The notes under the pieces are model-generated. The model searched no databases. It saw only the letters and a list, made by a program, of their open reading frames with translations, and was not told where the DNA came from. The position numbers were made by a program, and so were the translations under genes. Below are positions 1,541-62,664 of a stretch of DNA of 64,000 bases, in pieces. The stretch's first letter is position 1, and each line of letters begins with the position of its first letter. The stretch spans positions 62,001 to 126,000 of the forward strand of contig NZ_CAJYBT010000001.1 of the NCBI RefSeq assembly GCF_913064665.1, read 5' to 3'. Source of the stretch: an uncultured Thioclava sp. (GTDB lineage Bacteria; Pseudomonadota; Alphaproteobacteria; Rhodobacterales; Rhodobacteraceae).

Positions 1541-2347
1541 GCGTGTTCTCCATGTTCGCAACGCCGTTTTCTATCGCGATCTGGAGGGACCTCATGAGGA
1601 GTGCGGCGTCACTGGGTGATCCTCCCGTTTTAAACGGGACTTGGTCTTAGAGCTTACCCGGCAGGTTATTTCAAAGCAAAAGCCCGAGAGGGCATCGCAC
1701 CGCACTTCAAACGCCATTTGTAAAACGACCCAGTACTCATGCCTGTTCGCGGCACAACTCAGCCACCGGCACGGCGCCTTCCGCCTGACGCAGGATCGCA
1801 AGGATCTGGGGTTCGTTAAATCTCGTCATCTTCATCAGAATCTCCGCAGGTATCTTGCTGACAAAATTCAGCATCCGCATGCCCTTAGGTTTGGGGAGGA
1901 TTACTATTTGGCCCTCCGTCCCGCAACCTATGGGCGATTTCCCCACGAGAACAAGATAGTGGCCTAACTGACACAAAACGAGATACGTGAGAAAGCACAA
2001 ACCTACTTCTAGGCGCAACTGGACCGATCTCTTGGCTGACTGGATCGGCACGGCCTGTCGAAGAACACTTTGGCGGACGAACGCGAAGAAATTATAGGCC
2101 AAAAAGGCCTCATGAGCATTGAGAGCGCCATTCAATCTGGCTCGCCATTGAACGCTTCAAGAGCAAGATGAACATCGCTGATGCGGTTTGGCGACGACCC
2201 GCACCACCCATCTCCGCCATTCCAGGAAATCCCGCCTCTCAGCGGCAAAAAGCAACCCTTGGTTGTATCTTGCTAGCGTCACCGACGATCTGACGCTATA
2301 CGATCAGAAATTTCGGACAATGGCCTAGAACTATATTGGAGACGGTT
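1541..2347. other. Decayed gene-free stretch with transposon remains
   Basis: No intact gene is visible in about 800 bases. Position 1623-1639 holds a near-perfect palindrome (8-base arms TCCCGTTT and AAACGGGA around one T). An IS3 OrfA fragment lies at 1690-1835. The remainder, 1840-2330, is open in short frames only and matches nothing I recognise. The composition is more AT-rich than the region after 11.4 kb. It looks like a junction where mobile elements have landed and eroded, just before the surface-polymer cassette. Confidence 0.6.
1690..1835 (-). mobile_element. IS3-family transposase OrfA fragment (frameshifted)
   Basis: Read on the minus strand from the ATG at 1835, the translation begins MKMTRFNEPQILAILRQAEG and continues through VPVAELCRE, the typical N-terminus of IS3-family (IS407-like) OrfA helix-turn-helix proteins. 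One base is missing after that point: the frame stops at 1737, but the shifted frame continues GMSTGSFYKWRLKCGAM, again OrfA-like. A GGAG sequence precedes the start. No OrfB and no clear terminal repeats remain, so this is a dead fragment. Family placement rests on remembered motif similarity, not on a search. Confidence 0.8.
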
Positions 2348-4276
2348 ATGCAAATGATTGTTGAGGAGCTTGCGACGAGCCTGAAGGTGTGGGCGGAAGG
2401 ATGCCAAGCTATCCAAGCGCGTGAGGCTATTCCGATTAGCATGCCGGATCGTAGCAACTCCAACGAGCAGATTGATGATATCTTCTTTGCTCGCGGGCTA
2501 GACCTGACCAGCCTTAGTGGCAAAGACACTCTTACAATGGCCGGTTATCAAGAGCTGCAAACAGGCACGCTGAGAAACTCGTTCTACACCTCTATATTTG
2601 CGCGCCACACCGATGTGCGCGACGTGCAGTTTCGCATTGTGACTCGGGGTGATTTTGAAGTCACCCTCTTCAGCAGCGCGACAAATTCTGGCGTTAAGAA
2701 CCTGAAAAAGCTGACGATTAAAAGCAGTGAAGACGGCGAGCCAGTGACAACGACAGCCCGCGTGCGGCTGGAAGGGGAAGCAGGAAAGAACGCGCGTCTG
2801 TTCTGGTCGGGTGTGGCGCTGCATGACAACGCCCAAATCCTTGACGCATCGTGGGATGCGATAGCGCCAAGCACGGTTGATGGCAAAATGTTGGTCGTGC
2901 TGCGCACCTTTGGGCGCACCTTAGACATTCTCGACTTGCTGGCGAGCTTTGAAGAGCAGTCGCAAGGCAACCCCGCGTATCAGCGCGCGCTGCGCAACAT
3001 CAAGTTCGTAGTGCTCGACACCTCAGCTGGTCTGACGCCCGAATCATATAGCCTTTGCTCGTCTTTCGAGCATGTTGATAGCTTTGCGTTTGAAGGCCCG
3101 AACATGGGCGGTGGCGGCAATATGAGCCAGATTTTGCTGGTGATCGAAGACGCCGTTGAGCGGTCGGGTGTCAGCATCGACGAAATGCTGTTGCTTGATG
3201 ACGACCTGTCGATTTCGATGGAAACGCTCTACCGTCATTGGGCCAGCGTGCTGTTTCGGACCGACAACACGCTGTTCACCTTGCCAGTGTTCACCAAGTC
3301 AGAGCCACGCCGCATGTGGGAAGACGGCGCATTCTGGGGCCGCTTTCTGGACGCGGATTGCCAGCCCGACCGAAAGTCTATCGCGCCGCGCCTGATCCGC
3401 CACAACTACCAGTTTGAAGGCTACAAGCACCTTGATGAGCTGGCCGTGCCAAACTACCCGGAATATTGCACGTTCATCTTTTTGAGCCTGCCCTATACGC
3501 AGTTCAAAAAGCTCGGCTTCCCGCTCGCGTTTTTCTTGCGCGGTGACGACATCGAATACAGCCTCCGGCACAACCGCTCGGGCGGCAAGATCATGTCAAA
3601 CCCGAACCTAACTGCTTGGCATGAGCCCGCGCATTCCTACGGGCAAGAGTATATGTCGATCTCGCACGGCATCATCATCAACATGGCCTACGGGCAGGAT
3701 AAAGCTGATGACTTCGTGTCGTTCTTCCAAAAGCGAGCGCTTGCGCACACAAGCGTCTCCGATGCGCGCGGGATCGAGCTTTACACGGAAGTCCTGCGTG
3801 ATCTGAACAGCCGCGATGTGTTCCTCGAGCATAACTTCAAAGACCACTACGTGCAAAAGCTTGGCTTCTTCAAAAAGTTTGATGCCGAGTATGAGCACCT
3901 GCCTGCGGAAGTGCAGCGCGACGTTATTGCGAAGGCCGAGAAGCGTGGGCAACCAATCGTTCGGAGTGGCTTTCTCTATATGCCCGTCGCAGCCCAGTCC
4001 GAAATTGCTCAGGTTATGCTAGAAAATCCGCATACAGAGACAGTGAGACTCTATCGCACGAAAGACAAAGAGAACCTCACCGCCCTCACCAAAGCCCTGA
4101 GCGCCTTCTATGCGGCCCTAGCCCAATTTGACGCCGAGTATGACGCGATCAAGGCGCATTACGGTGAGCGGGTCGAACGCTCCACAGGGCGCACATTCTG
4201 GCTGGACGAGATGGAGTTGTCGAAAGGCGATCTTCGGATCTTGGCCAGATCTGAGTTCCTCGCAGCTGCGGAATAG
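2348..4276 (+). CDS. GlfT2-like family 2 glycosyltransferase
   Basis: The 642-residue product resembles the polymerising galactofuranosyltransferase GlfT2: an N-terminal beta-rich domain (about 1-170), a GT-A domain (about 175-430) and a helical C-terminus. Visible catalytic elements are the metal-binding DDD at 284-286, the GDDIE acidic motif around 400-401 and the WHE motif at 424-426. GlfT2-type enzymes use UDP-galactofuranose, but the donor here is unproven and no UDP-galactopyranose mutase gene lies in the window. Start: ATG 2348 is preceded at 6 bases by GGAG; a TTG at 2336 is in frame but lies on top of that SD. It opens a tightly spaced same-strand cassette, and the next gene begins 12 bases after its stop. 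Likely cytoplasmic, building a cell-surface glycan. Confidence 0.8.
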   Translation: MQMIVEELATSLKVWAEGCQAIQAREAIPISMPDRSNSNEQIDDIFFARGLDLTSLSGKDTLTMAGYQELQTGTLRNSFYTSIFARHTDVRDVQFRIVTRGDFEVTLFSSATNSGVKNLKKLTIKSSEDGEPVTTTARVRLEGEAGKNARLFWSGVALHDNAQILDASWDAIAPSTVDGKMLVVLRTFGRTLDILDLLASFEEQSQGNPAYQRALRNIKFVVLDTSAGLTPESYSLCSSFEHVDSFAFEGPNMGGGGNMSQILLVIEDAVERSGVSIDEMLLLDDDLSISMETLYRHWASVLFRTDNTLFTLPVFTKSEPRRMWEDGAFWGRFLDADCQPDRKSIAPRLIRHNYQFEGYKHLDELAVPNYPEYCTFIFLSLPYTQFKKLGFPLAFFLRGDDIEYSLRHNRSGGKIMSNPNLTAWHEPAHSYGQEYMSISHGIIINMAYGQDKADDFVSFFQKRALAHTSVSDARGIELYTEVLRDLNSRDVFLEHNFKDHYVQKLGFFKKFDAEYEHLPAEVQRDVIAKAEKRGQPIVRSGFLYMPVAAQSEIAQVMLENPHTETVRLYRTKDKENLTALTKALSAFYAALAQFDAEYDAIKAHYGERVERSTGRTFWLDEMELSKGDLRILARSEFLAAAE

Positions 4277-4288
4277 GATGCGAGCAGA

Positions 4289-4861
4289 ATGGAAACAGCA
4301 CGCAAATTATTTCCCAAACGGCACCTTTTGAAGATCAAAGGCGATGATCTATCCAAGCACGAGCCGGTTTTGTTGATAAATGCTCAGTCAGAGCAAGCGA
4401 TCGATGCAAATTGCAGCGAGCGCACGTTCTCGCTGGTGACGCGTGAGCAGGCCGCAGAAGACTGGCGGACCGGTGTTTACTGGTATCTTGACCCACAGCA
4501 AGACGGCTCATGGCGCATCTACAACCAAGGACAGGCCGCACATTTGCTCGGCGGCGCACGCGGGGCCGTTCACCTGTTTGGCGAAACCGCGACCAAGAAA
4601 GACAAGGGCGCTAGCTGGGGGCTTTATGAGCACAAAGACAGCGGCACCTATGCGTTGCGCCCGCAAGAGGAAGCCTGGCTTACACTCGTAGACGGCGAAC
4701 TGTCGCTCGAAACCTTTTCAGCAGAGATCCCCAAGACAAGCCTCTGGAAGATTGAACGCCCCGTAGGCGCCAAGCCTATGGTTGAGAGAGAGACAGCGCC
4801 GCCATCACTTCCCGGACGCGTCCGCCGCCTGCTTGGACGGATCAAAAGGAAAGTGATGTAA
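4289..4861 (+). CDS. Unknown cassette protein, beta-rich
   Basis: The 190-residue protein is not recognised. It has no signal peptide or membrane segment. Spaced Trp/Tyr/Leu motifs (VYWYLDPQ, WRIYNQGQ, SWGLYEHK, TYALRPQ, LWKIERP) at roughly 25-35 residue intervals suggest a repeated beta-hairpin fold such as a beta-trefoil or another carbohydrate-binding module; this is inference from pattern only. The C-terminus is basic (RRLLGRIKRK). It lies between the glycosyltransferase and the aldolase and its stop overlaps the aldolase start by one base (TAATG), so it is probably translationally coupled to it. It may assist the upstream glycosyltransferase, but no function can be assigned. Confidence 0.6.
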   Translation: METARKLFPKRHLLKIKGDDLSKHEPVLLINAQSEQAIDANCSERTFSLVTREQAAEDWRTGVYWYLDPQQDGSWRIYNQGQAAHLLGGARGAVHLFGETATKKDKGASWGLYEHKDSGTYALRPQEEAWLTLVDGELSLETFSAEIPKTSLWKIERPVGAKPMVERETAPPSLPGRVRRLLGRIKRKVM

Positions 4862-5700
4862 TGCAAATTTCCGATCACATGAAAGATGCCGTTGAGAAAG
4901 GCTATGCGCTCGCCGCCTTTAACGCGCCAAGTTTTGACGCGATGTCCGCAATCGCAAAGGCGGCCAAGGTGCAAGACAAACCGGTTATCATCCAGACATC
5001 CGCCCGCTTGGTGAAACAGCACACAGCTGATGCTGTCGGGCAATGGTTTCAAACCGCGAAGAAAATCTGGGGCGCACAGTGCTACCTTCATCTTGATCAC
5101 TGCGTGGACCTCGCCTTGATTTCGGACTGCATTGATGCGGGTTGGGACATGGTTATGTTTGACGGTTCTCACTTTGAGATCGGCAAGAACATTGACCTCA
5201 GCCAGCAAGTCAGCGCGATGGCGCACCGCAAGGGCGTTGCCGTTGAGGGTGAGATTGGCTGTATCGGCGGAGAAGAAGACGGGCTGTCAGCTGACGCCAA
5301 CTACGCCAACCCCGACGAAACCGCACGTTTGGTGGCAGAAGGCGGGCTTGATTGCATCGCTGTTGGGTTTGGGAATGTTCACGGCGACTACGAAACCAAA
5401 GCCAACCTGCGCTGGGATATTTACGAAGCAGCCTATGACGTGACGGGTTTGCCCTTGGTGCTGCACGGCGGCTCGGGCCTGACAGACGCGGAGTTCGCCC
5501 GCGCTATTCGTGCCAAATCAGCCAAGGTGAATATCTCGACTGATTTGAAGAAAGCATATGTTCAGGCGCTCGAGTCTGCGGAGATGAAGGGAAAAATTCT
5601 AAGCGCGCCATCAGCCGTGCATGACGCCATTTTCGAGTCCTGCTTCGACGTCGCTGGAACTTACATCAATAAATTCAATCCTACCGAAGGAACACTCTGA
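4861..5700 (+). CDS. Class II (zinc) ketose-bisphosphate aldolase family protein
   Basis: The 279-residue length and motifs fit the fructose-bisphosphate/tagatose-bisphosphate class II aldolase family, which joins dihydroxyacetone phosphate to an aldehyde. The catalytic Asp79 and zinc ligand His80 sit in HLDH; Glu131 (EGEIG), His174 (NVHG) and His202 (LHGGSG) complete the site, and NISTDL is the phosphate-binding segment. Housekeeping aldolase activity is possible. Its place between a glycosyltransferase gene and a sugar-kinase/alcohol-dehydrogenase pair, with 1-base overlaps on both sides, suggests it makes a phosphorylated ketose precursor for a surface polymer. The aldehyde substrate cannot be read from the sequence. 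Confidence 0.85.
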   Translation: MQISDHMKDAVEKGYALAAFNAPSFDAMSAIAKAAKVQDKPVIIQTSARLVKQHTADAVGQWFQTAKKIWGAQCYLHLDHCVDLALISDCIDAGWDMVMFDGSHFEIGKNIDLSQQVSAMAHRKGVAVEGEIGCIGGEEDGLSADANYANPDETARLVAEGGLDCIAVGFGNVHGDYETKANLRWDIYEAAYDVTGLPLVLHGGSGLTDAEFARAIRAKSAKVNISTDLKKAYVQALESAEMKGKILSAPSAVHDAIFESCFDVAGTYINKFNPTEGTL

Positions 5701-7241
5701 TGATTATCGTTTTAAACCTTGGTCTAAAGAGCGTTCGGTCCATTATCTACAACGAACAAGGTATGCGAATTGCGAATGCGGGCCGCAGAGTGAACTCGCG
5801 TTTGAACGGGGAACTTGTTGAGCAGGATGCGCACGAATGGCGCACCAAGCTGATGGAAGTTCTGCGTGAATCGATCGACGTTTCGGGCCTTGGCGGGAAG
5901 ATCAAGTATGTCACCGTTGCATGCTCGGCGAGCTGCCTTGTCCCTGTCGACAGAAGCCTAGTGCCAAAATGCCGGGTTATCATGGTGTCAGACAAGCGCG
6001 CACGCGACCAAGCTGCGCGCATCTCGCAATCGGAAAACATGGTGAAACTGGCGCAGAAATACGGCTATAAAGCTTCTGAATACAGCCAGATTTCCCGCAT
6101 GTTGTGGCTCAAGGAAAACGACCCAGCCGCTTACGAAGGCACTTGGAAGTTCCTAGCGCCAAACGACTACCTGACCGCAGTCTTGACGGGCGGGCAGGCC
6201 GTAACGGACCAGCTGAACGCCGAGAAGAACTTCTTTGATACCGAAGCGGGCAGCTACCCGGACGCGCTCTATGACGAGTTTGGCCTCGACACTGGCAAGC
6301 TTCCCGAGCGTGTCGACATCGGCACCAATGTTGGCAAGCTCGACAAAACCTTGCTCGCGGAAGCGGGGATCACCAGCGACCCGGACATGATCGTCGGCAC
6401 CTATGACGCTATCTGCTCTGTCTTTGGCACTGGCGTCAGCGCACCGGGCCAGGTTTGCGACGTGTCGGGCACCGTGACGTCCGTGCGGATGTATTCCGAC
6501 AAGCCCTTCCACGATGACAAGGGTCGGATCATGTGCCAACATTTTCCACCTAGCAACGGCTACCTTTTTGGCGGGTCTAACAACCTTGGCGGCGGGCTTA
6601 TCGAGTGGGCAAAGACATGCCTCTACACCGGCGACGAGAACCCCTACGAGAAGATGCAAATTGAAACCGAAGGCGACGGGTCATTTGGTTCCAACCGCAC
6701 CGGGCTTGTGTTCCTGCCGCATTTGCTCGGCGCACGCGCTCCAAGCTGGAACTCGGATGCCAGAGGGATCTTCTTCGGGCTTGAACGCCATCACACACGC
6801 GGCGACTTGATGCGCTCAATCTTTGAAAGCGTCGCATTCTCGATCCGCGATTTTCTGGAAATCTTCCACGAAAGTGAAACATCTCCCGAGATGATCACTG
6901 CCAGCGGCGGCCTTGCAACAATCAGGATCGCAAACGAGATCAAAGCTTCGATCACGGGCTTGCCCTATCACTTCATGGCTGAGTTTGAATCCACCAGCCT
7001 TGGTGCCGCAATCATTGTGATGTGTTCGCAGGGCCGGTTTGAAAGCTACCAGCAGGCCTGTGAGCAGATCGTTGCGACCAAGCAGATATTCCTGCCGCGC
7101 GCCCAAGACAAACAATACTATGACGACATGTATGGCCTCTATACAGAACTCAGCATTCAAGCGGATCCGCTGTTCCAGAAGCGCAAGGTGATCATGGAAA
7201 AGCACCGCATCAGTGTCGGTGAGTTTGTGGAGAACCTTTGA
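5700..7241 (+). CDS. FGGY-family carbohydrate kinase, atypical N-terminal motif
   Basis: The 513-residue protein has the two-lobed FGGY kinase layout. The probable catalytic base lies in VGTYDAICSVFG, the nucleotide-binding turns include DVSGTVTS, and the C-terminal lobe carries GGLATIRIANEI and STSLGAA, matching the usual GGG-A and ALGAA elements. Unlike most members, the first phosphate loop reads LNLGLKSVRS: the usual Asp is Asn6 and the usual GTxxxR pattern is altered. Substrates in this family are ketoses and polyols. It overlaps the aldolase stop by one base and the dehydrogenase start by four (ATGA), implying coupled translation and a shared pathway. The actual substrate is unknown. 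Confidence 0.85.
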   Translation: MIIVLNLGLKSVRSIIYNEQGMRIANAGRRVNSRLNGELVEQDAHEWRTKLMEVLRESIDVSGLGGKIKYVTVACSASCLVPVDRSLVPKCRVIMVSDKRARDQAARISQSENMVKLAQKYGYKASEYSQISRMLWLKENDPAAYEGTWKFLAPNDYLTAVLTGGQAVTDQLNAEKNFFDTEAGSYPDALYDEFGLDTGKLPERVDIGTNVGKLDKTLLAEAGITSDPDMIVGTYDAICSVFGTGVSAPGQVCDVSGTVTSVRMYSDKPFHDDKGRIMCQHFPPSNGYLFGGSNNLGGGLIEWAKTCLYTGDENPYEKMQIETEGDGSFGSNRTGLVFLPHLLGARAPSWNSDARGIFFGLERHHTRGDLMRSIFESVAFSIRDFLEIFHESETSPEMITASGGLATIRIANEIKASITGLPYHFMAEFESTSLGAAIIVMCSQGRFESYQQACEQIVATKQIFLPRAQDKQYYDDMYGLYTELSIQADPLFQKRKVIMEKHRISVGEFVENL

Positions 7242-8395
7242 TGGCCAGTTTTGACATTGCGACACGCACCAAAGCCATTTTTGGCGAAGGCAGGCGCGCC
7301 GAACTTGGCGGATTGATTGGCGAGACGGCGGACTCAACAACGCTGGTTGTTGCCTCTGCAAGCGCCCTCAAACGGGACATGACGCAAAGCATCGTGGCAA
7401 CGCTTCAGGCGCAGGGGCCGGTTGTGATCTGGGACAAGGTGCAGCCGAACCCGCGTGTTTCTGACATCGACGCCTGCTTGGAAGCGCATAAAGACAGCGG
7501 TATTTCTCATATTGTCGGCATCGGCGGTGGCAGCGCGCTTGATCAGGCGAAAGCCACCGCGATGGCGCTCGACACGGGGCTGACCATCGCAGAGCTTTTG
7601 AAGTTGAAGCCGGGCCTGCCCGTGCGCCGCAACACACTAATCTTGATGCCCACGACCAGCGGCACGGGCGCCGAGCTAAGCTATGGTGCTATTCTCACCG
7701 ACACCGTGAGCGGAGAAAAGCTGGGCCTGCGCGGGGCCAACCAAGCGGCCGACTACGCGATCGTCGACCCAGAGCTGACATATTCCTTGCCGCGTTCAGA
7801 AGCCATGGTCACCGGCTTTGATGTGCTCACGCACGCGCTTGAAACCTTCATTTCAACAGCGGCCACGCCTTACACGACTGATCTCTCCAGAGGCGCGGTT
7901 GAACGTGTCTTCAAGCACCTGCCAGTGCTGTTTGACGATGGCAACAACAACGAAGCCCGCGCAGAACTTTCGTATGCCAGCATGATGATGGGCATCAACC
8001 TTGCCCTCTCGACGACATGCATGCCGCACCGCCTGCAATACCCGATTGGCGCAGAAACCGACACGGCGCACGCAGCTGGCCTCGCGGCGATTTACCCCGC
8101 TTGGTTGAAGCATCTCCTCCCGCATGCGGAAGAGAAGCTTGCGCAATGTGCCGACTGGATCGGCGTCGGCGGCAGAAGCCAAGCTGAAAGCGCGCACAAC
8201 TTTGCACGGGCCACGGTTGAGCTTTTGGAGCGGATCGAGCTTACGCCGACGTTGCAAGAGCTGGGCGTAACCGAAGAAGCGGTTGGCCGTTTTGCATCGG
8301 AAGTAAGTGGCAAACTCGAAACCGACCCCAGCTTTAAAGCACGCGATGATCTCGCCAAAATATATCAAGACGCTTGGTCTGGCGCGGGTCTGTAA
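7241..8395 (+). CDS. Iron-containing (group III) alcohol dehydrogenase family protein
   Basis: The 384-residue protein belongs to the Fe-ADH/dehydroquinate-synthase-like fold. The NAD(P)-binding GIGGGSALD spans 93-101, and all four metal ligands are visible: Asp194, His198, His263 and His277. Relatives reduce small aldehydes, including phosphonoacetaldehyde, or interconvert ketoses and polyols. No phosphonate-forming PEP mutase gene is present here. In this setting it may reduce the aldolase or kinase product to a polyol before nucleotide activation; that is inference. Start: ATG 7241 overlaps the kinase stop in ATGA; a TTG just before it is less likely. The following gene starts 17 bases downstream. 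Confidence 0.85.
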   Translation: MASFDIATRTKAIFGEGRRAELGGLIGETADSTTLVVASASALKRDMTQSIVATLQAQGPVVIWDKVQPNPRVSDIDACLEAHKDSGISHIVGIGGGSALDQAKATAMALDTGLTIAELLKLKPGLPVRRNTLILMPTTSGTGAELSYGAILTDTVSGEKLGLRGANQAADYAIVDPELTYSLPRSEAMVTGFDVLTHALETFISTAATPYTTDLSRGAVERVFKHLPVLFDDGNNNEARAELSYASMMMGINLALSTTCMPHRLQYPIGAETDTAHAAGLAAIYPAWLKHLLPHAEEKLAQCADWIGVGGRSQAESAHNFARATVELLERIELTPTLQELGVTEEAVGRFASEVSGKLETDPSFKARDDLAKIYQDAWSGAGL

Positions 8396-8412
8396 CCCAT
8401 TAGGAGAAGTCT

Positions 8413-9132
8413 ATGAAAGCCGTCATTCTTGCCGCGGGAAAAGGCAGCCGTATTGCAGATGTTGCGGTCGAAACACCCAAAAGCTTGCTTCCGCTTGGCG
8501 ACACGACATTGCTGGGCCAATCCCTTGGCCACTTCAAAGCACATGGTGTCACCGAGCTTGTTATCGTTACAGGCTACAAGCGTGACATGATCGCTGACTA
8601 TACGCGCCAACACTGGGACGGCGCACTTGAGGTGGTCTATAACCCTCACTTCGACCGCACAAATGTGCTCTATTCTTTCTGGCTGGCGATGCCCTATTTG
8701 GGCGACGACGACTTTCTGTTTCTGCACGCAGACACTGTCTTCTCTGACGAAGTCATCGCTCGCGTTGTTGCACATCCAAGCTCCGCTCAGATGGTCTTCG
8801 CCGTTGACGATCACCCGTGCGAAGAAGAAGAGATGAAGGTTCTAACCAAGAGTAACTTGGTGACAGATGTGAACAAGCAAATGGAGCCAAGCACCTGCAA
8901 TGGTGAGTTCCTCGGGCTTGCGCGCGTGTCTGGCGAGCAGACAAAAGGTTTGCGCCGCCATGCAGAGCGCCTGTTTGAAGAAGGCGCAATGCAGTCCTTT
9001 TTTGAAATGGCCGTGCAACGCATGATCGACGAAGACGGGCTTCAGGTCGAAGTTTGTGACGTCACAGGGTTGCCTTGGCGCGAGGTCGACTTCCCGGAAG
9101 ATTACGAAGCCGCCCGCGGTTTCTTCGGATGA
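8413..9132 (+). CDS. Nucleotidyltransferase, LicC/PntC (phosphocholine cytidylyltransferase-like) type
   Basis: The 239-residue single-domain sugar-nucleotidyltransferase fold has the N-terminal LAAGKGSRI loop, Lys23 in TPKSLLPLG, the VTGYK motif and a metal-binding Asp107 in FLHADTVF. The short length, the YNPHFDRTNVLYSFWLA segment and the late WREVDFPEDYEAA element match the LicC/PntC branch that couples CTP to phosphocholine, phosphonates or phospho-alcohols rather than the longer hexose-1-phosphate enzymes. An AGGAG SD lies 7 bases before the ATG. Likely role: forming a CDP-linked (or other NDP-linked) small polyol or alcohol for the glycerophosphotransferase-like enzyme downstream. Substrate not proven. 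Confidence 0.82.
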   Translation: MKAVILAAGKGSRIADVAVETPKSLLPLGDTTLLGQSLGHFKAHGVTELVIVTGYKRDMIADYTRQHWDGALEVVYNPHFDRTNVLYSFWLAMPYLGDDDFLFLHADTVFSDEVIARVVAHPSSAQMVFAVDDHPCEEEEMKVLTKSNLVTDVNKQMEPSTCNGEFLGLARVSGEQTKGLRRHAERLFEEGAMQSFFEMAVQRMIDEDGLQVEVCDVTGLPWREVDFPEDYEAARGFFG

Positions 9133-9310
9133 TCAAACGTCCCTATCATGCACGTTAATTGCACCCCCCTTCCCGAAGCACGAGGTTTGGGAAATACAGC
9201 CGATTTTCGCCGCAATCGCATCTGCTTGCGTTGCGTATCGTTATTGTTTTTGCACACAGAACCGCTGCGAGATAGCTTTGACGAGCATGACTTATTATGG
9301 TGGCGTTGAA

Positions 9311-11338
9311 ATGGCTTCAGATCCTGAATTTACAGAAGAAGAGCTTGTTCAAAAGGCCCATGACGCCTCGGCGCGCCAAGCGAATGATGAAGTCTTGGCT
9401 GTGTGTGAAACGCTACGTTCAGCCTATCCGAAATCTGCACATGGCTATGGGCTTGCCGCAGTGGCCTTGCGCAGACTCGGCCAAGTAGACGCATCCAACG
9501 CAATGGTTTGGAAATCGGTCAAAGCCATTGGTCTGCGCCCATGGCACCTTATAACGATGGCCGACACGGCAATGGACTTCAAGGATTGGGACGAGGCCTT
9601 ACGCCGTTGGAAAGACCTTCGCATGGCCTTTCCCGCACACCAGAAAGGCTATTTCCGCGCAGCCGTTGCACATCGCGAGATGGGGCAGCTCGAGGACTGT
9701 GACAGGCTGCTGGAAGAAAAGATGTCGCGGATGAAGCCTGAGGCGCCCGACTTTAACCTATGGGCAGACTCTGCCATCGACCGTGGCGAGTGGGAGCTTG
9801 CCGCCGACCGGTTGGAGCAAATGCAAAAGGCGTTCCCGAAAGAGCCCAGCGCCCATGTAGCCGGTGCGCGTGTGATGAGCGCGTTTAAGCACGAAAAGAA
9901 CGCAGCGCACGACAGCCAATACGCCGAAAAGCCGCGCTCTTTGATGCAAGAATTTGACGCTCTGTACCGCGAAATGCGCGACAAAAGCTTTGGCCTGCAA
10001 GACATGATAGACGCTGCTGGCTGGATCGTGCGCTGCCGCGCTGTCTCGCCGCAAACCAGAGGCGCGCAACGCCTCTTCCAGCTTGCGGAAACGGATAAAA
10101 ACCTCGCCAAGGTTCTTGCGGGCGAAACAATTGCGCCGCCCACCTACAGTGCTGATCGTCCGATCAAGCCATTGTTCTTTTTTCCGATAATCACGCAGAC
10201 AGACAACCTGACACCGCTGCTGGAGAAAATGGCGCAAGACCCGCGCTTTGAGCCGATCATTTTGTGTTCACGCAACCGGGCCAACGACTACGACGACAGC
10301 TACGCGTTTTTCTCAAAGACCTATGCACATAACCCGCGCATCACGGTCATCGATGGCGGCGCGCATGTTAACGAAAACATCAGCCCCTATGAGCTAGGCG
10401 CTGACGTTGTATTCTTTCACACGCCGTATTCGCACGGGCCGAGCTATCCGTTCTTTTTGTGGGCCGGATTTGTGGCCCGTCACACCCGCGTTGCCCACGT
10501 AAACTATGGCTACTTCCTGCTTACGCTCGAAGGCACGGAAAAGCACATTTATGACAACCCGCAAATTCAAGTCGCTGACATGGTGTTCAGTGAAAGTGAT
10601 GTGAGCGACAGGGTTTTTCGCGCCAGCTTCGGTGATGAGCGGGTGCACAAAACCGGCTACCCTAAATTCGACAGATTCCGCGCCTGCCTCGAGACCGTGC
10701 CGTTTGAAGAGCGCGTAAAAGGCAAAGACAAGCTGGATGTCATTTGGACGCCGCACTGGCAGATGGCGGAAGACCCGACAGGTGGCACGCATACCTCAAA
10801 CTTCACGCGCTATGTTGACACCATGCTCAAGCTTTCAGAGCGCGATGATGTGGTTTTGCACGTCCGTCCGCACCCGCTTTTGCGGCCGCGGCTCAAAGTT
10901 CTCGGCATGTATGACTTCGATGAATTTGACGCGATCATGGATACGTTTGAAAAAAACGGTGCTGTTGTCTATCCGGCCAATGAAGGTGTTTCATATGTTG
11001 AAGCGCTCATGTCGGCTGATGTGCTGATTTCTGACTTCAGCTCTCTCGTGCCCGAGTTTTTCATTACAGAACGCCCGATCATTTTCTGCCGGACAGACGA
11101 TGTCTGGAACAACGGCAAATGGATCGGCTCGTTTGGCAAGACGCTCATCAATGAGGGCTGCTATACTGTCGACTCTGAAAATGAGTTGCTGGCGATGCTC
11201 TCAACAATCGTCGCTGAGCGAAAGCACCCGAAAATGCAAAACATGCAGCGGCTCATTTCCGAGAACAACCTGTTCCCGGAAGGCTCATCATGCGAGCGGA
11301 TCGCGGATGTTGTGGCGCAGCGCATCACTGGCGGCTGA
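9311..11338 (+). CDS. TPR-like N-terminus plus CDP-glycerol glycerophosphotransferase-like protein
   Basis: The 675-residue protein has an N-terminal half (about 5-260) of paired helices with TPR-like spacing and Trp/Ala/Gly positions (AAVALRRLGQ, WLADS-type repeats). Its C-terminal half resembles CDP-glycerol:polyglycerophosphate glycerophosphotransferases (TagB/TagF family), with HVRPHP and ADVLISDFSSLVPEF as the typical donor-site motifs and a late FPEGSSCERIA helix. Such enzymes transfer phospho-polyols from CDP-polyols to membrane-linked acceptors. Start: ATG 9311 follows GGTGG by 7 bases; ATG 9287 is an alternative, and the frame is open back to 9056 inside the previous gene. The 178-base gap before it is AT-rich with no clear gene. 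It is the last gene of the cassette. Confidence 0.8.
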   Translation: MASDPEFTEEELVQKAHDASARQANDEVLAVCETLRSAYPKSAHGYGLAAVALRRLGQVDASNAMVWKSVKAIGLRPWHLITMADTAMDFKDWDEALRRWKDLRMAFPAHQKGYFRAAVAHREMGQLEDCDRLLEEKMSRMKPEAPDFNLWADSAIDRGEWELAADRLEQMQKAFPKEPSAHVAGARVMSAFKHEKNAAHDSQYAEKPRSLMQEFDALYREMRDKSFGLQDMIDAAGWIVRCRAVSPQTRGAQRLFQLAETDKNLAKVLAGETIAPPTYSADRPIKPLFFFPIITQTDNLTPLLEKMAQDPRFEPIILCSRNRANDYDDSYAFFSKTYAHNPRITVIDGGAHVNENISPYELGADVVFFHTPYSHGPSYPFFLWAGFVARHTRVAHVNYGYFLLTLEGTEKHIYDNPQIQVADMVFSESDVSDRVFRASFGDERVHKTGYPKFDRFRACLETVPFEERVKGKDKLDVIWTPHWQMAEDPTGGTHTSNFTRYVDTMLKLSERDDVVLHVRPHPLLRPRLKVLGMYDFDEFDAIMDTFEKNGAVVYPANEGVSYVEALMSADVLISDFSSLVPEFFITERPIIFCRTDDVWNNGKWIGSFGKTLINEGCYTVDSENELLAMLSTIVAERKHPKMQNMQRLISENNLFPEGSSCERIADVVAQRITGG

Positions 11339-12929: not shown

Positions 12930-13084
12930 TCGTTCGAGATCAGAACCGGGCCTGAAACTGCGAATGAAATGGTGACCTCCTCGCCGACTGAGAAGGGGGT
13001 GCCCACATCCTCTGCGGTGGCAAATGCCGTGCCGAAAGCCGCCGTGACCGTATATTCCATCCGAGTCCCGATATAGGTCGCCTT
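12926..13084 (-). pseudogene. C-terminal (TOBE) stub of an ABC transporter ATPase
   Basis: The last 50 or so codons of a frame ending at 12926 read KATYIGTRMEYTV followed by a short beta-rich tail with VGEEVTISFA, the pattern of the TOBE domain at the end of spermidine/sugar-type ABC ATPases (PotA/UgpC class). No Walker motifs remain: upstream sequence switches directly into an IS5-family transposase fragment. The gene body must have been removed by insertion and deletion. Not expected to be functional. Confidence 0.7.
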
Positions 13085-13358
13085 GTCGATCAGCAGGTGC
13101 AGCGGGCCGTTGGTACCACGATGGGGATATTCACCGCCAAGGTCTTCTGGTGGCGGCTGAACGTATTGAAGTCGGGCACCACCCCGTCGAGGCCGACCAG
13201 CCGTAGCAGGCTCTCGACAAACCCGGTCGTCTGCCAAAGCGCCATGCCGAACAGCATTTTCATCGAAAGACAGGTCTAGATCGCCCCGGCGCTGGAGCGT
13301 TTCATTGTAGGTCGGCCAGTTCAGGGTCTTGTAGGTCGGGGGGTGTCGGCCTGTTCAT
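13085..13358 (-). mobile_element. IS5-family transposase remnant with deletion and frameshifts
   Basis: On the minus strand from the ATG at 13358 the pieces read MNRPTPP, then (after a frameshift) TYKTLNWPTYNETLQRRG, then (after an internal deletion) MKMLFGMALWQTTGFVESLL and RLVGLDGVVPDFNTFSRHQK, then (after a one-base insertion) HRGTNGPLHLLID. These match, in order, the N-terminal third of IS5-family DDE transposases common in alphaproteobacteria. The catalytic region is missing; the element stops at LLID and is joined to an ABC ATPase stub. An inverted repeat at 13378-13396 may mark the former terminal region. Confidence 0.82.
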
Positions 13359-13377
13359 GCGACCCAGCTATCATGCT

Positions 13378-13396
13378 GGATTCACAAGATGAATCC
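13378..13396. repeat. Inverted repeat beside the IS5 remnant
   Basis: Seven-base arms GGATTCA and TGAATCC flank a five-base spacer. It lies 20 bases upstream of the transposase start and could be part of the element's left end or its promoter. The opposite end of the element is gone, so it cannot be paired. Confidence 0.45.
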
Positions 13397-13449
13397 CCTC
13401 ACATGATTTGTGCAGCCGAGCCGCTGGGTTGGCATGCATCTGGTGTGCC

Positions 13450-51983: not shown

Positions 51984-53915
51984 TTATTCGCCGGGGCGAT
52001 TGGCCGGGCGGTTCACAGCGCTGCGTTCTTGGACGACGCTCATCTGAAGGCTTTCTGCGGCGTGGCTTTGCGGCATATATTCGGGGATCGCGCGCGCCAG
52101 CGTGGCCAGCATCTCGGCGGGGTCATTGCGCTCGATCGCATCGCGCAAATCGCGCAGCATCGCGGCGGTTTGCAACTCTGACAACCGATCCTCGCGCACG
52201 CGGATAATCTTGGGATGCGAGGTGCTGCCCGCACCTTTGCGCACCATCAATTCCTCATACAGCTTTTCACCCGGGCGCAGTCCCGTCGTGACGATTTCAA
52301 TATCGCCATCAGGATTGGCCCGATCACGCACCTGAAAGCCGCGCCCCTCGATCATCCGCCGCGCCAGATCGCGGATCAGCATGGGCTTGCCCATGTCCAA
52401 CACATAGACCTCGCCACCATCCGCGAAGCTTCCCGCCAGCAAGACCAGTCGCGCCGCCTCTTGGATGGTCATGAAATAACGCGTCACCCGCAGATCGGTC
52501 AGCGTCACTGGCCCGCCCCGGAGAATCTGCTCTTCGAACAAGGGCACCACAGAGCCCGAAGACCCCAAGACATTGCCAAAGCGCACGATGGAAAAGATCG
52601 TTCCCTCGGGCCGGTCTGCCAGATCCTGCACAACCAGTTCGGAGAGGCGCTTTGAGGCGCCCATCACCGAGCCCGGTCGCACCGCCTTATCCGAAGAGAC
52701 CAGTACGAAACGCGCCACACCCGCCTCGCGGGCAGCGCGCGCCAGAACCTGCGTTGAGAAGACGTTATTCTGAAGCCCCGCGCGCATATTTTCCTCGACC
52801 AAGGGAACATGCTTATAGGCTGCGGCATGCATCACCACATCGACACCATTCTGCGCGAATAGGCTTGCCACCAGAACCGGATCAGCCGCCGAACCAAGCA
52901 CGGGCACGATCCGCGTACCAAACGGCTCGGCAAGCAGGCGCAATTCTTGATTTGCGGCGTAAAGTGCAAGTTCAGACAGTTCGAGCAAGATCAGTTGCGC
53001 CGGACGACAGGCAATGACCTGACGGCACAATTCCAGACCGATCGAGCCACCCGCACCCGACACCAGCACCGTGCTGCCTGCGTAGGCAATGTAGCTAGAA
53101 CTGAGCGTTTCAAACAGATCATCACGCCCCAGAAGCTGGCCTGATTTAACCGGCTCAAGGCGCGAAGCAAGCGTGCTGTCATCAATCAGCTGTGCAAAGG
53201 CGGGCAGCGTTTCCGTTGTGATCCCAAGCGCCTCAAACTGACGTGGCAGTGCCGTCTTGCGATCCGCGGGCAGGTCTGGATCTGCAAGAATGACACGGTT
53301 GATATTGTAAAGCACACGCAGTTCTTCCGCCTTGAAAACGGGATAAACCGTCAAGCCGTTCACATGCGAGCCGCGCAGCGCCGGGCTGTCATCAATAAAG
53401 CCATAGACCATCACGTCAGGACGATCCATCATCTCGCGAGACAGTTTGATCCCGGAAAATCCCGCACCATAAATGATGACGCGCGTCACAATCCGCGAGC
53501 GGCGATACAGCATCGTCAAAAGCTGCAGCATGCCCCGGCGCAGCACGATATAGCTGAGAAAATACAGCATCCCAAATAAGGTCGGCGCTATGGGCCTGAG
53601 ACGTTGAGACGAAACCACCTCCAACAGCCCCGACACCAGCGTCAGACCGATGGACATGATCAAGGCGCGTGTTATTGCCTCAGCATCGAAATGTTTGAGC
53701 TGCACGCGATGCAAACCAAGCATCATCGACAGACCACCTGCTACGATCATTAAGATAGGCAGATATCTGGGACCCAACTCAAAGATCGTGCGGTTATACT
53801 CAAGAAGCAAAAGCGCGGACATCAAGCCGACAATTGGCACCAACGCCACATCAACCGCCAAAAGGAAGAGATCCTTTTGTTTGCGCGTGAGACCCATGAA
53901 CCGTTTAAGCAACAT
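51984..53915 (-). CDS. CapD/WbpM-type UDP-sugar 4,6-dehydratase (polysaccharide biosynthesis)
   Basis: The 643-residue protein has four N-terminal membrane segments (about 15-130), a first Rossmann domain starting VIIYGAGFSG and a catalytic second one starting VLVSGAGGSIGLELCRQ. Further blocks are AAYKHVPLVEEN, SSDKAVRPGSVMGASKRL and VRFGNVLGSSGSVVPLF. Such membrane proteins make UDP-4-keto-6-deoxy-HexNAc for capsule, O-antigen or EPS. In place of the usual YxxxK motif the SxxxM-GASK pattern of the large WbpM/FlmA branch is seen. No strong SD before ATG 53915. Last gene of a minus-strand group with a sugar transferase and an epimerase. Confidence 0.9.
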   Translation of the reverse strand: MLLKRFMGLTRKQKDLFLLAVDVALVPIVGLMSALLLLEYNRTIFELGPRYLPILMIVAGGLSMMLGLHRVQLKHFDAEAITRALIMSIGLTLVSGLLEVVSSQRLRPIAPTLFGMLYFLSYIVLRRGMLQLLTMLYRRSRIVTRVIIYGAGFSGIKLSREMMDRPDVMVYGFIDDSPALRGSHVNGLTVYPVFKAEELRVLYNINRVILADPDLPADRKTALPRQFEALGITTETLPAFAQLIDDSTLASRLEPVKSGQLLGRDDLFETLSSSYIAYAGSTVLVSGAGGSIGLELCRQVIACRPAQLILLELSELALYAANQELRLLAEPFGTRIVPVLGSAADPVLVASLFAQNGVDVVMHAAAYKHVPLVEENMRAGLQNNVFSTQVLARAAREAGVARFVLVSSDKAVRPGSVMGASKRLSELVVQDLADRPEGTIFSIVRFGNVLGSSGSVVPLFEEQILRGGPVTLTDLRVTRYFMTIQEAARLVLLAGSFADGGEVYVLDMGKPMLIRDLARRMIEGRGFQVRDRANPDGDIEIVTTGLRPGEKLYEELMVRKGAGSTSHPKIIRVREDRLSELQTAAMLRDLRDAIERNDPAEMLATLARAIPEYMPQSHAAESLQMSVVQERSAVNRPANRPGE

Positions 53916-54036
53916 CTATGAAAATTCCCGCCATAGTTGTAACGCGCATCAGCGATGCACGCTATTGGCAAGCTCATAGCTATATCTACATCATTAACAG
54001 GTTCTTAATTTTGGAAGTTATGCACTGCGGCAAGTT

Positions 54037-54654
54037 TCAGCCGAAGACGCTTTTGAAGGTCCGCCAGATGAGCACGAGATCGAAACAAACCGACATATGC
54101 TTTTGATAGATCAGGTCCAGCTTGGCCTTGGCGGGAACACACCGTCGCGCATAGGCCGCATCGACCTCAGCTGCACTGGTGCACTGTCCGAGAATCCACG
54201 TTTCATGTTCATTAAAACAAAGTGATGCGAGCCCGGTGACCCCTGGCGGCGTCTTGAGTACCTCTGCATAGATATCGGGGAAACGTTCGACATATTCGCG
54301 CAAGGGTGGGCGGGGTCCGACAAAGCTGATGTCACCGCGATAGATGTTCCAGAACTGCGGCAATTCATCTGCCCGCAGCTTGCGCATGATCCCGCCCATC
54401 CGGGTAATTCGTTGCTGCTTATGCCCGCCAGACACCCCCGAATCACCCGCAACGACCTCCATCGTGCGAAATTTCAGCAGGCGAAAACTTTGAGTCGGGG
54501 TCTTCATCCGCTCGGCGGCGTAAAAATAGGGCCGCTTTTCGAATAGGATCACCGTGATCAGCGTGAACAGGAACAATCCCGCGACCAATGGCGTCAGCGC
54601 CACTGCCAGCGCCAGATCAAAGAGGCGTTTTGCCAGACGCTGCGTGCGTGTCAT
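54037..54654 (-). CDS. Initiating sugar-phosphate transferase (bacterial sugar transferase family)
   Basis: The 205-residue monotopic membrane enzyme has one N-terminal hydrophobic segment, then KFRTM, RKLRADELPQFWNIYRGDIS, FVGPRPPLREY and PPGVTGLA, all signatures of the polyprenol-phosphate sugar-1-phosphate transferase family (WbaP/PglC type). It starts surface-glycan assembly on undecaprenyl phosphate. It overlaps the epimerase stop in ATGA; 121 bases separate it from the CapD-like gene. Confidence 0.92.
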   Translation of the reverse strand: MTRTQRLAKRLFDLALAVALTPLVAGLFLFTLITVILFEKRPYFYAAERMKTPTQSFRLLKFRTMEVVAGDSGVSGGHKQQRITRMGGIMRKLRADELPQFWNIYRGDISFVGPRPPLREYVERFPDIYAEVLKTPPGVTGLASLCFNEHETWILGQCTSAAEVDAAYARRCVPAKAKLDLIYQKHMSVCFDLVLIWRTFKSVFG

Positions 54655-55532
54655 GCCATCTCCTGCCGTATGCGTTTCATATCTTCGACCAGATCGGCAG
54701 CGTCACCATCTGCGCGCCCCACAAGACCCAAACGCACCGCCTGCGTCACGTCCAGTTCGACGCGCGCTATTGCGGCCTCGGGTGCTGGGATCGGCTGCCA
54801 TCGCTCCCCGGCCGCAGTCAGCAAATCATCCATCCCAACCACACCGGGGAGCGCTAGATTGAGCCGCTTCGGGAGGCGCGCGCGATCGGCAACGGCCAAG
54901 CGAACCAGCCGCGCTACCGCAGCCGCCAGCGCACCGGGCCCGATATAGCTGCGCTGCGGCGCGCGGCCATCGGCAAAAACATGCAGGCGGCGGCCCTCAG
55001 CGGGCGCAGCGGCGCCGAGCAGCGCATCCGCCCCCGCCACATTCCCAATGCGCAGCGCACAGCCATGCGCCATCCCGGCCAGCACCGCCTCCATATCGCA
55101 TTTCGAGCGGCCATAGGCATTGAGAGGCGCGCAAGGCGTGTCTTCGGTCAGTGGCCCGGCCCCGCGCCCATAGACCGCAGCGGACGATGCCGCGATCAAC
55201 GGCACCCCCGCCATTTGCGCCGCGTCGCGCGCAGCCTTGGCCAATGCAGCATTGACGGCCAAAGCCTCGGGGGGGCCGTTGATCACCCCGGCCAGCAGCA
55301 AAACCGCATCGGCCTGAGCGCAGGCGCGCGCCAACGACTCGGGCGCGTCGAGAATGTCAAACACCGGCCCGTCCAGACCTGCCGCGCGTCGCGCCTGCCA
55401 TATCGGCACAATGCCCGCTGCATCAGGCGTTGCGCGCCAAGCCGCGCGCAGCATCGCTCCCAATCGCCCGGTGCCGCCCAAAATCAGCAACTGCGGCAGA
55501 TCGGCGCGCGGAGCTTTGGCATCAACGGGCAT
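54651..55532 (-). CDS. NAD-dependent epimerase/dehydratase, short-chain fold
   Basis: The 293-residue protein has a Rossmann motif ILGGTGRLGAMLRAAW, the catalytic Ser/Tyr/Lys set in AASSAAVYGRG and NAYGRSKCDME, and SYIGPGALAAAVARL near the substrate region. It resembles 4-keto-reductases/4-epimerases that finish UDP-sugars for the linked sugar transferase, probably acting on the CapD-like product. First gene of the three-gene polysaccharide group. Confidence 0.8.
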   Translation of the reverse strand: MPVDAKAPRADLPQLLILGGTGRLGAMLRAAWRATPDAAGIVPIWQARRAAGLDGPVFDILDAPESLARACAQADAVLLLAGVINGPPEALAVNAALAKAARDAAQMAGVPLIAASSAAVYGRGAGPLTEDTPCAPLNAYGRSKCDMEAVLAGMAHGCALRIGNVAGADALLGAAAPAEGRRLHVFADGRAPQRSYIGPGALAAAVARLVRLAVADRARLPKRLNLALPGVVGMDDLLTAAGERWQPIPAPEAAIARVELDVTQAVRLGLVGRADGDAADLVEDMKRIRQEMA

Positions 55533-61567: not shown

Positions 61568-62664
61568 TGGAAAAGACCCCGAAATGGATTGACGTGGGGC
61601 TGATCCCCCTGCTCAACCTGCTGATTGCCTTTGTGATTTCCGGCATCGTCGTGCTGCTAATCGGGGAGAACCCGGTGCAGGCGATCAAAGTGATGGTGGA
61701 TGGCGCTTTGGGCTCGCCCTATGGCTGGGGCTACACGCTGTTTTACGCCACCAACTTCATCTTCACCGGGCTGGCCGTGGCCGTCGCCTATCACGCCAGC
61801 CAGTTCAATATCGGCGGTGAGGGACAGGCGACACTCGGCGGTCTTGGCGTGGCGTTGGTCTGTCTGGCCTTCCCGTGGCCGCATTGGTCGATCGCGCTGC
61901 TTGCGGCGATGATCGGCGGCGCGGTGTTTGGCGCGGCTTGGGCGGCAATCCCGGCCTATCTGCAAGCGAAACGCGGCAGCCATATCGTGATCACCACGAT
62001 CATGTTCAACTTCATCGGCGCGTCGCTGCTCAATTACATGCTGGTCAATGTGCTGCGCCCGCGCGGCTCGATGGACCCGGCAACCGCGCGTTTTGCCAAT
62101 TCCACGCATTTGCCGACCTTCCATGATATGCCTCTGATCGGGCAGTTCTTTGGCAAATCGGTGCCGGCGAATATCTCGTTCTTCATCGCCGTGCTGGCGT
62201 GTTTCCTCGTCTGGGGGCTGATCTGGCGCACGAAGCTGGGCTACGCGATCCGTGCCTTTGGTCGCTCGGAATCCGCCGCGCGCTATGCCGGTATCTCGCC
62301 TGTGAAAATCGTGATGGCGGCGATGCTGATTTCGGGAGGGCTAGCGGGTCTGATGGCGATCAACAACGTCATGGGCACGGGTCACCGCCTTGTTTTGAAT
62401 TCGGTCGAGGGCGCGGGTTTCATCGGCATCGCCGTGGCGCTGATGGGGCGCAATCACCCGTTTGGCGTGTTTCTGGCCGCGTTGCTGTTTGGCTTTCTCT
62501 ATCAAGGCGGCGGCGAGTTGGCGCTGGAAACCACGATCCCGCGTGAGTTGATCACCGTGATCCAAGCGCTGGTGATCTTGTTCACAGGTGCCTTCGACAA
62601 CATGCTGCGTGCGCCGATCGAAAGCTTTTTCGTCGCGCGTGCCAAAGCCAACAAGGAGGCGTAA
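61567..62664 (+). CDS. Nucleoside-type ABC transporter permease (YufP type)
   Basis: The 365-residue inner-membrane protein has about nine hydrophobic segments. AYHASQFNIGGEGQATLGG and GSHIVITTIMFNFIGASLL are family blocks, with RAFGRSESAARYAGI as the likely ATPase contact loop. Overlaps the ATPase stop by one base. Confidence 0.9.
   Translation: MEKTPKWIDVGLIPLLNLLIAFVISGIVVLLIGENPVQAIKVMVDGALGSPYGWGYTLFYATNFIFTGLAVAVAYHASQFNIGGEGQATLGGLGVALVCLAFPWPHWSIALLAAMIGGAVFGAAWAAIPAYLQAKRGSHIVITTIMFNFIGASLLNYMLVNVLRPRGSMDPATARFANSTHLPTFHDMPLIGQFFGKSVPANISFFIAVLACFLVWGLIWRTKLGYAIRAFGRSESAARYAGISPVKIVMAAMLISGGLAGLMAINNVMGTGHRLVLNSVEGAGFIGIAVALMGRNHPFGVFLAALLFGFLYQGGGELALETTIPRELITVIQALVILFTGAFDNMLRAPIESFFVARAKANKEA

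Follow-up and report, generated by a model that had tools for sequence, protein, structure and literature searches.

The 64,000-nucleotide stretch of DNA analysed here (the window; positions 62,001 to 126,000 of contig NZ_CAJYBT010000001.1, assembly GCF_913064665.1) comes from an uncultured Thioclava sp. of the family Rhodobacteraceae. Between positions 2348 and 11338 of the window, it carries a gene cassette that an earlier note, made from the sequence alone, had described as one seven-gene unit that may build and polymerise a novel nucleotide-activated polyol or phospho-sugar. The list of open reading frames (ORFs), together with Pfam and NCBIfam searches, showed that seven plus-strand genes with the domains named in that note are present. 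We assign them to a core module (A) and to two further modules (B and C), as follows (aa, amino acids; TPR, tetratricopeptide repeat).

2348..4276, plus strand: GlfT2-family glycosyltransferase (GT); module B; profile match to GlfT2 4fix in the PDB
4289..4861, plus strand: 190-aa protein, partner of the GT; module B; without a Pfam or NCBIfam match at E ≤ 0.001
4861..5700, plus strand: class II (FbaA/GatY superfamily) aldolase; core module A; F_bP_aldolase, 239 bits
5700..7241, plus strand: FGGY carbohydrate kinase; core module A; FGGY_N and FGGY_C
7241..8395, plus strand: iron-containing alcohol dehydrogenase (Fe-ADH); core module A; Fe-ADH and ADH_Fe_C
8413..9132, plus strand: LicC/PntC-type nucleotidyltransferase (NTase), predicted cytidine triphosphate (CTP):alcohol-phosphate cytidylyltransferase; core module A; NTP_transf_3
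9311..11338, plus strand: TPR and TagF-like (Glyphos_transf) phosphotransferase, predicted user of a cytidine diphosphate (CDP)-alcohol; module C; PF04464

Coupling among the first six genes is tight: neighbours overlap by no more than one base and are never more than 17 bases apart; the ATG of the Fe-ADH gene at 7241, for example, shares one base with the stop codon of the kinase gene. The overlap or near-overlap described in the earlier note holds for these six genes but probably not for the seventh. In the mechanical ORF list, a GTG at 9056 is the first codon of the TagF-like ORF, but the gene probably starts at the ATG at 9287 or 9311, which leaves a gap of 154–178 bases after the NTase gene. 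None of the listed NCBIfam matches of the seven proteins reaches its cut-off (for the NTase, the best 25 of 26 matches were listed).

The four genes of the core (aldolase–FGGY kinase–Fe-ADH–NTase, 4861–9132) are conserved as a unit. The earlier note had left it to a search of other genomes whether this block recurs and travels with surface-glycan genes. In G1088, a genome from another genus of the same family, the four core genes are adjacent in the same order, with protein identities of 57, 68, 63, and 66%, respectively. Because order and adjacency are kept at 57–68% identity in another genus, the arrangement goes beyond chance. Nei-Gojobori counts between the two loci gave nonsynonymous divergences (dN) of 0.27–0.42 and synonymous divergences (dS) from 1.8 to saturated, which indicates purifying selection on the core. 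As read from the ORFs, there is no transporter or regulator inside the operon at either locus. A search of the 35 kb surrounding the G1088 core at E ≤ 1e-3 gave no match to the GT, the 190-aa protein, or the TagF-like protein. Downstream of this core, a convergent ORF of 412 aa matches LicD (PF04991; 30 bits, cut-off 22.6), but over only 26 residues, corresponding to profile positions 7–32 of 227 alone. Beyond this ORF are a small ORF and then genes with Glycos_transf_1 (27.5 bits, cut-off 26.4) and Glycos_transf_2 domains. Both core loci found adjoin candidate surface-glycan phosphotransferase genes.

The core seems to be a rare four-gene operon. The aldolase was searched for in three overlapping genome samples. 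At E ≤ 1e-40, the only hit among 147 relatives was the genome of the window itself; at E ≤ 1e-30, a sample of 398 genomes from the phylum gave 29, its own among them and the others all at ≤38% identity; and at E ≤ 1e-38, a sample of 394 genomes from the family gave five, which were its own, G1088 (58%), and three more at 37%. Inspection of four loci in the family showed the block in G1088, a 24% relative of the kinase near the aldolase in G1107, and neither in the other two. The kinase was found at E ≤ 1e-50 only in its own genome among 385 genomes of the class, and at E ≤ 1e-45 in one of the two genomes of the genus of G1088, namely G1088 itself. Aldolase relatives at 31–38% identity occur at 12 places (one in its own genome) without any other cassette gene. 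For the NTase, 14 matches outside its own genome were listed (26–32% identity, 11 genomes), and no other cassette gene was detected at E ≤ 1e-3 in the surroundings of 13 of them, some on contigs of 5–12 kb, or at L001. The NTase alone is not decisive as a marker of the core. A search of named-genome contigs with the NTase gave one relative (25%). On plasmids, the relatives are distant: aldolases at 33–39% among the 25 of 51 records listed (none at 1e-40), kinases at 23–27% among the 15 of 26 listed, and Fe-ADHs at 31–33% among the 15 of 148 listed, with no match to the TagF-like protein. Scans of viral contigs yielded no relative.

The description of the NTase as LicC/PntC-like is borne out by its family profile, which groups it with cytidylyltransferases of small alcohol phosphates. 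This profile (A4) was made from the window NTase and eight relatives of 24–31% identity. Among the 61 sequences that it matched in the PDB, the two best were PntC (1.7e-32) and LicC (9.3e-28), and the next were inositol-1-phosphate cytidylyltransferases (2.8e-20 and 1.3e-19); the matches to PntC, LicC, and the inositol-phosphate cytidylyltransferases span the full length. The best solved match of the single NTase sequence is another NTase, 4y7t (9.1e-13, residues 1–125 only). In the W-x-E-x-D stretch of the NTase, E224 and D226 are invariant in all nine sequences, and the E-I-D of LicC aligns there. Glu216 of LicC is a metal-coordinating acidic residue near the C-terminus, and the W-x-E-x-D stretch is its counterpart in the NTase. 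The accessible text of the PntC paper places Glu104 and Glu196 of PntC at the amine of aminoethylphosphonate (AEP). Glu104 aligns with His105 of the NTase, which is also a histidine in G1088, and Glu196 aligns with Glu198, so that the two residues at the amine are not both kept. The earlier note had seen no phosphoenolpyruvate (PEP) mutase, and a search of the whole assembly agrees: it contains no match to this enzyme (TIGR02320) at E ≤ 0.001. At a locus of another genome (L020:9771-14305), a PEP mutase-NTase fusion comes after an NTase relative, and then, as read from sequence, a phosphonopyruvate-decarboxylase-like gene, which points to phosphonate tailoring in that genome.

The aldolase matched 20 NCBIfam models without reaching the cut-off of any. 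Its residues D79, H80, E131, H174, H202, and N224 are common to both core loci, and the catalytic Asp, the His ligands, and the Asn of the dihydroxyacetone phosphate (DHAP) site of class II aldolases are present. It lacks the DPR motif of GatY, whose TDPRD aligns with SAPSA; we take this motif to be part of the second-phosphate site in GatY-type aldolases. In the kinase, Asp236 aligns with the Asp of GlpK and XylB that is presumably catalytic, and the positions of R84, E85, and W104 of GlpK, which we take to contact glycerol, are occupied by the small residues A, S, and V in both core kinases, so that the glycerol contacts are not kept. Residues D195, H199, H264, and H278 of the Fe-ADH (numbered from a TTG at 7238) align with four residues of FucO that presumably bind the metal, and all four are kept at both core loci. 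An unphosphorylated aldehyde would fit the absence of the DPR motif, and a substrate that is not glycerol would fit the kinase pocket. These residues do not fix the order of the steps. More distant aldolase relatives that also lack the DPR motif stand beside DhaK/DhaL and HAD genes, as read from sequence. Aldolases related to that of the cassette at 34–36% identity (L051:6717-10064, L092, and L093) have, as read from sequence, a HAD phosphatase as neighbour, with or without DhaK/DhaL, and these neighbourhoods perhaps represent an uncharacterised catabolic set.

The GT and its 190-aa partner have a distribution of their own. The Pfam Glft2_N match of the GT sequence is below threshold (21.2 bits, cut-off 26.1), whereas a profile of five sequences (A1; the cassette GT, its relatives in genome G535 and in Ponticoccus, and two more distant paralogues, one of them from its own genome) matches solved GlfT2 (4fix) at E 9.1e-32, which upholds the earlier assignment as GlfT2-like. 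The DDD, W-E, and RGDD motifs are invariant in all five aligned sequences. At E ≤ 1e-15, the GT was found among 195 relatives only as itself and in G535 (44%); plasmid p-SCP1 of Ponticoccus alexandrii carries a relative at 38%. Directly 3' of the GT homologue in G535 lies the gene of a related protein, 29% identical to the 190-aa protein (E 5e-7). On p-SCP1, a 167-aa protein at the same position aligns at 23% but was not detected by tblastn, and its homology to the 190-aa protein is tentative. No core gene was found around the GT in G535 (44 kb) or p-SCP1 (32 kb). The GT and 190-aa genes thus appear to be a pair that recurs without a nearby core, clearly in G535 and tentatively in Ponticoccus. 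Three genes upstream of the GlfT2-like gene, the Ponticoccus plasmid encodes a 1480-aa protein with a Capsule_synth domain and TPR repeats (L063:5887-10329).

With the GT/190-aa pair present in G535 without the core, and the core present in G1088 without the GT, the 190-aa protein, and the TagF-like protein, the seven genes cannot be regarded as one unit. What stands of the seven-gene cassette is the conserved four-gene core; the pair is separate, and the candidate phosphotransferase differs between the core loci. The cassette is two or three modules, not one.

A galactofuranose setting, as the earlier note had proposed, fits the assembly, which contains the UDP-galactopyranose (UDP-Galp) mutase for a galactofuranose (Galf) donor (TIGR00031, 310.5 bits, cut-off 303.75). 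Near the end of the same contig, a locus (L078:9269-18989; C1:174568-184288) holds a second GlfT2-like GT, which is one of the paralogues in profile A1, the UDP-Galp mutase, and, as read from sequence, GDP-sugar genes (ManC-, ManB-, Gmd-, and WcaG-like).

The TagF-like protein of module C matches PF04464 with 55.2 bits (cut-off 22.1), the single match of this family in the assembly; its TPR_19 match (21.2 bits) is below the cut-off of 25. At E ≤ 1e-12, it was found in three of 195 relatives including its own genome, and the other two proteins align at 26–27% over the C-terminal half. For one of these two, the genes around it read as a surface-glycan-like cluster that includes a TagD-like protein. 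A three-sequence profile matches TarL at 5.1e-10, compared with only E 0.35 for the single sequence, and the His of the RPHP motif aligns with that of MHP in TarL. The catalytic His residues of TagF are H444 and H584 according to the accessible part of PMC5974469. No TagD-type cytidylyltransferase is among the seven cassette genes (no genome-wide search was made for TagD). On contig 19 lie genes of the KpsC/KpsS type (Capsule_synth) together with a Poly_export gene.

The conservation of the core and the closeness of its NTase to PntC and LicC make a CDP-activated phospho-alcohol with an exchangeable phosphotransferase the most likely explanation. We consider it probable that the aldolase, FGGY kinase, Fe-ADH, and NTase of the core together make such a CDP-activated compound, and that a nearby phosphotransferase links the phospho-alcohol to a surface glycan through a phosphodiester. 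The phosphotransferase would be the TPR-TagF-like enzyme here and perhaps a LicD-type enzyme at the G1088 locus. The acceptor here may be a Galf-containing, capsule-like glycan, partly built by the neighbouring GlfT2-like enzyme. In the order of steps that we prefer, the aldolase would handle DHAP and an unphosphorylated aldehyde, the Fe-ADH would reduce an aldehyde to an alcohol, and the kinase would add a phosphate before activation by the NTase. We infer CTP as the donor, the phosphodiester product, and the surface location, and the chemistry upstream of the NTase is the least certain part. The main new evidence, from a sample of two and with a short LicD match, is the difference in the transferase neighbour between the two core loci. 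A broader proposal is more tentative and in our view has somewhat less than an even chance: the core may be a portable pathway to an undescribed nucleotide-activated polyol, made by de novo aldol chemistry and not by reduction of a pentose or triose phosphate, and may serve interchangeable TagF-like and LicD-like transferases in alphaproteobacteria.

Several observations weigh against this explanation. Only two core loci were found. The gene with the LicD match is convergent with the G1088 operon and lies outside it, and the match is short, at 26 residues. The A4 profile holds one PEP mutase-adjacent sequence (L020), which may bias it towards PntC. The predicted structures are unusable (pLDDT 34.6 for the NTase and 39.7 for the 190-aa protein). 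The region of the first His of TagF is outside the TarL alignment, and all three TagF-like homologues have Tyr-Gly at the expected place. The glf gene and the paralogous GT lie ~110 kb from the cassette on its contig, and a different contig carries the KpsC/KpsS-type genes; their joint action with the cassette is therefore assumed.

An alternative that we regard as possible but doubtful is forward aldol chemistry, along the lines proposed in the earlier note, in which DHAP (or dihydroxyacetone, DHA) and an aldehyde would give a new ketose (phosphate), to be converted by the kinase and the Fe-ADH into an alditol phosphate and then activated as a CDP-alditol larger than glycerol. The catalytic residues kept in the aldolase are consistent with such a reaction, the missing DPR motif, with its presumed role, fits an unphosphorylated aldehyde acceptor, and the A, S, and V at the GlpK positions in both core kinases would suit a larger substrate. 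However, a DHAP-dependent product would already be phosphorylated, which makes the kinase step awkward, and the substrates of Fe-ADHs of this type are mostly aldehydes and primary alcohols, not C2 ketones.

It is improbable that the core serves a CDP-glycerol or CDP-2-glycerol route, with DHA or glyceraldehyde reduced to glycerol, phosphorylated, and activated. The CDP-2-glycerol of pneumococcal capsules is made by the same logic of reductase, kinase, and cytidylyltransferase, and the partner transferase belongs to the CDP-glycerol family, but the presumed glycerol contacts of GlpK are absent from both core kinases and the aldolase would be superfluous. Quite improbable, too, is a catabolic set in which the aldolase, kinase, and Fe-ADH would degrade a sugar or sugar alcohol, as in the use of fucose or rhamnose, with the NTase adjacent by chance. 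Each of the three enzymes comes from a superfamily rich in catabolic members, and distant aldolase relatives stand beside DhaK/DhaL and HAD genes, beside a HAD gene, or, in G1107, beside the 24% kinase relative. Plain catabolism was nevertheless rejected as the main explanation, given the NTase conserved with the three enzymes at both loci, the adjoining candidate phosphotransferase genes, and the operons free of a transporter or regulator. Phosphonate tailoring, with the NTase activating a phosphonate such as AEP, was rejected as very improbable: among solved enzymes the NTase profile matches PntC best, an NTase relative lies beside a PEP mutase gene at L020, and Glu196 of PntC is kept as Glu198, but no PEP mutase was found in the assembly and Glu104 is replaced by His105, in G1088 as well.

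A pathway to a CDP-activated phospho-alcohol would resemble the CDP-ribitol and CDP-glycerol systems (Tar/Bcs-type; TagD) in that a polyol phosphate is activated by cytidylylation to supply teichoic-acid-like polymers. It would differ from them in the families of the reductase and NTase, and in the additional aldolase and kinase. Two CDP-alditol routes start from glycerol 3-phosphate and ribulose 5-phosphate, as stated in the accessible part of PMC7729866. The Lic and Pnt pathways (LicC-LicD phosphocholine and PntC aminoethylphosphonate), as far as described in the accessible text of PMC6697681, likewise activate a small-alcohol phosphate or phosphonate for a surface glycan with a LicC/PntC-type enzyme, and LicD-like transferases occur nearby. 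In contrast, the present assembly is without a PEP mutase, and an aldolase, an FGGY kinase, and an Fe-ADH would precede the activation. Most TagF-like capsule polymerases of Gram-negative bacteria carry TPR domains, according to the accessible part of PMC5974469. The enzyme of module C shares the TPR and TagF-like domain and, with KpsC/KpsS-type genes elsewhere in the assembly, the group 2 capsule setting; it differs in its distant TagF-like domain (TarL, 5.1e-10), in having no fused glycosyltransferase domain above the Pfam cut-off, and in the Tyr-Gly at the expected first TagF His. CpgD of Caulobacter is a phosphoglycerate cytidylyltransferase serving a sphingolipid (accessible part of PMC12275187). 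It is likewise an alphaproteobacterial NTase that uses a small non-sugar phosphate with CTP, as predicted here, but the same part of that source describes no aldolase-kinase-ADH operon for it. The cassette GT resembles the galactofuranosyltransferase GlfT2 in sequence family and catalytic motifs, with the UDP-Galp mutase in the same assembly; its activity is predicted, and its subfamily is only 21% identical to its own paralogue by glf.

In the literature, a search by title and abstract, with most subscription papers outside reach, gave no report of the aldolase-FGGY kinase-Fe-ADH-cytidylyltransferase combination or pathway among the papers listed. The proposed core pathway would be a variant on the known CDP-alcohol theme, resting on two loci. 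If our proposal is true, a conserved unit with differing transferase neighbours would add a new type of nucleotide-alcohol donor, and would suggest a way in which surface phosphodiesters can diversify, through the movement of donor-making modules. The four enzymes look soluble and are directly testable in vitro.

The lower GC content and the flanking insertion sequence (IS) remnants reported earlier for the cassette were both observed. Its GC content is 55.3%, compared with 60.7% in the remaining window, and equally low values occur in 1.4% of overlapping 9-kb windows, those of the cassette itself counted. Two further low-GC stretches (56.3 and 56.5%) lie on the contig beyond the window, so that the cassette is not its only low-GC part. 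The IS remnants are as follows.

~1704..1912, no strand assigned: IS3-family remnant, left flank; 84.8–86.1% identity to Loktanella plasmid DNA
~13084..13430, no strand assigned: IS5-family remnant, right flank; 80–82% identity to Paracoccus, Phaeobacter, and Cereibacter plasmid DNA

The identity of the IS3 remnant is taken from the three best matches, two of which are annotated with an IS3 family transposase, and that of the IS5 remnant from the eight matches listed, three of which are annotated as IS5 family or IS5-like. Elsewhere in the window, on the minus strand at 51984-55532, genes read from sequence as a CapD-like epimerase/dehydratase, a sugar transferase, and a third gene form a possible glycan-initiation locus.

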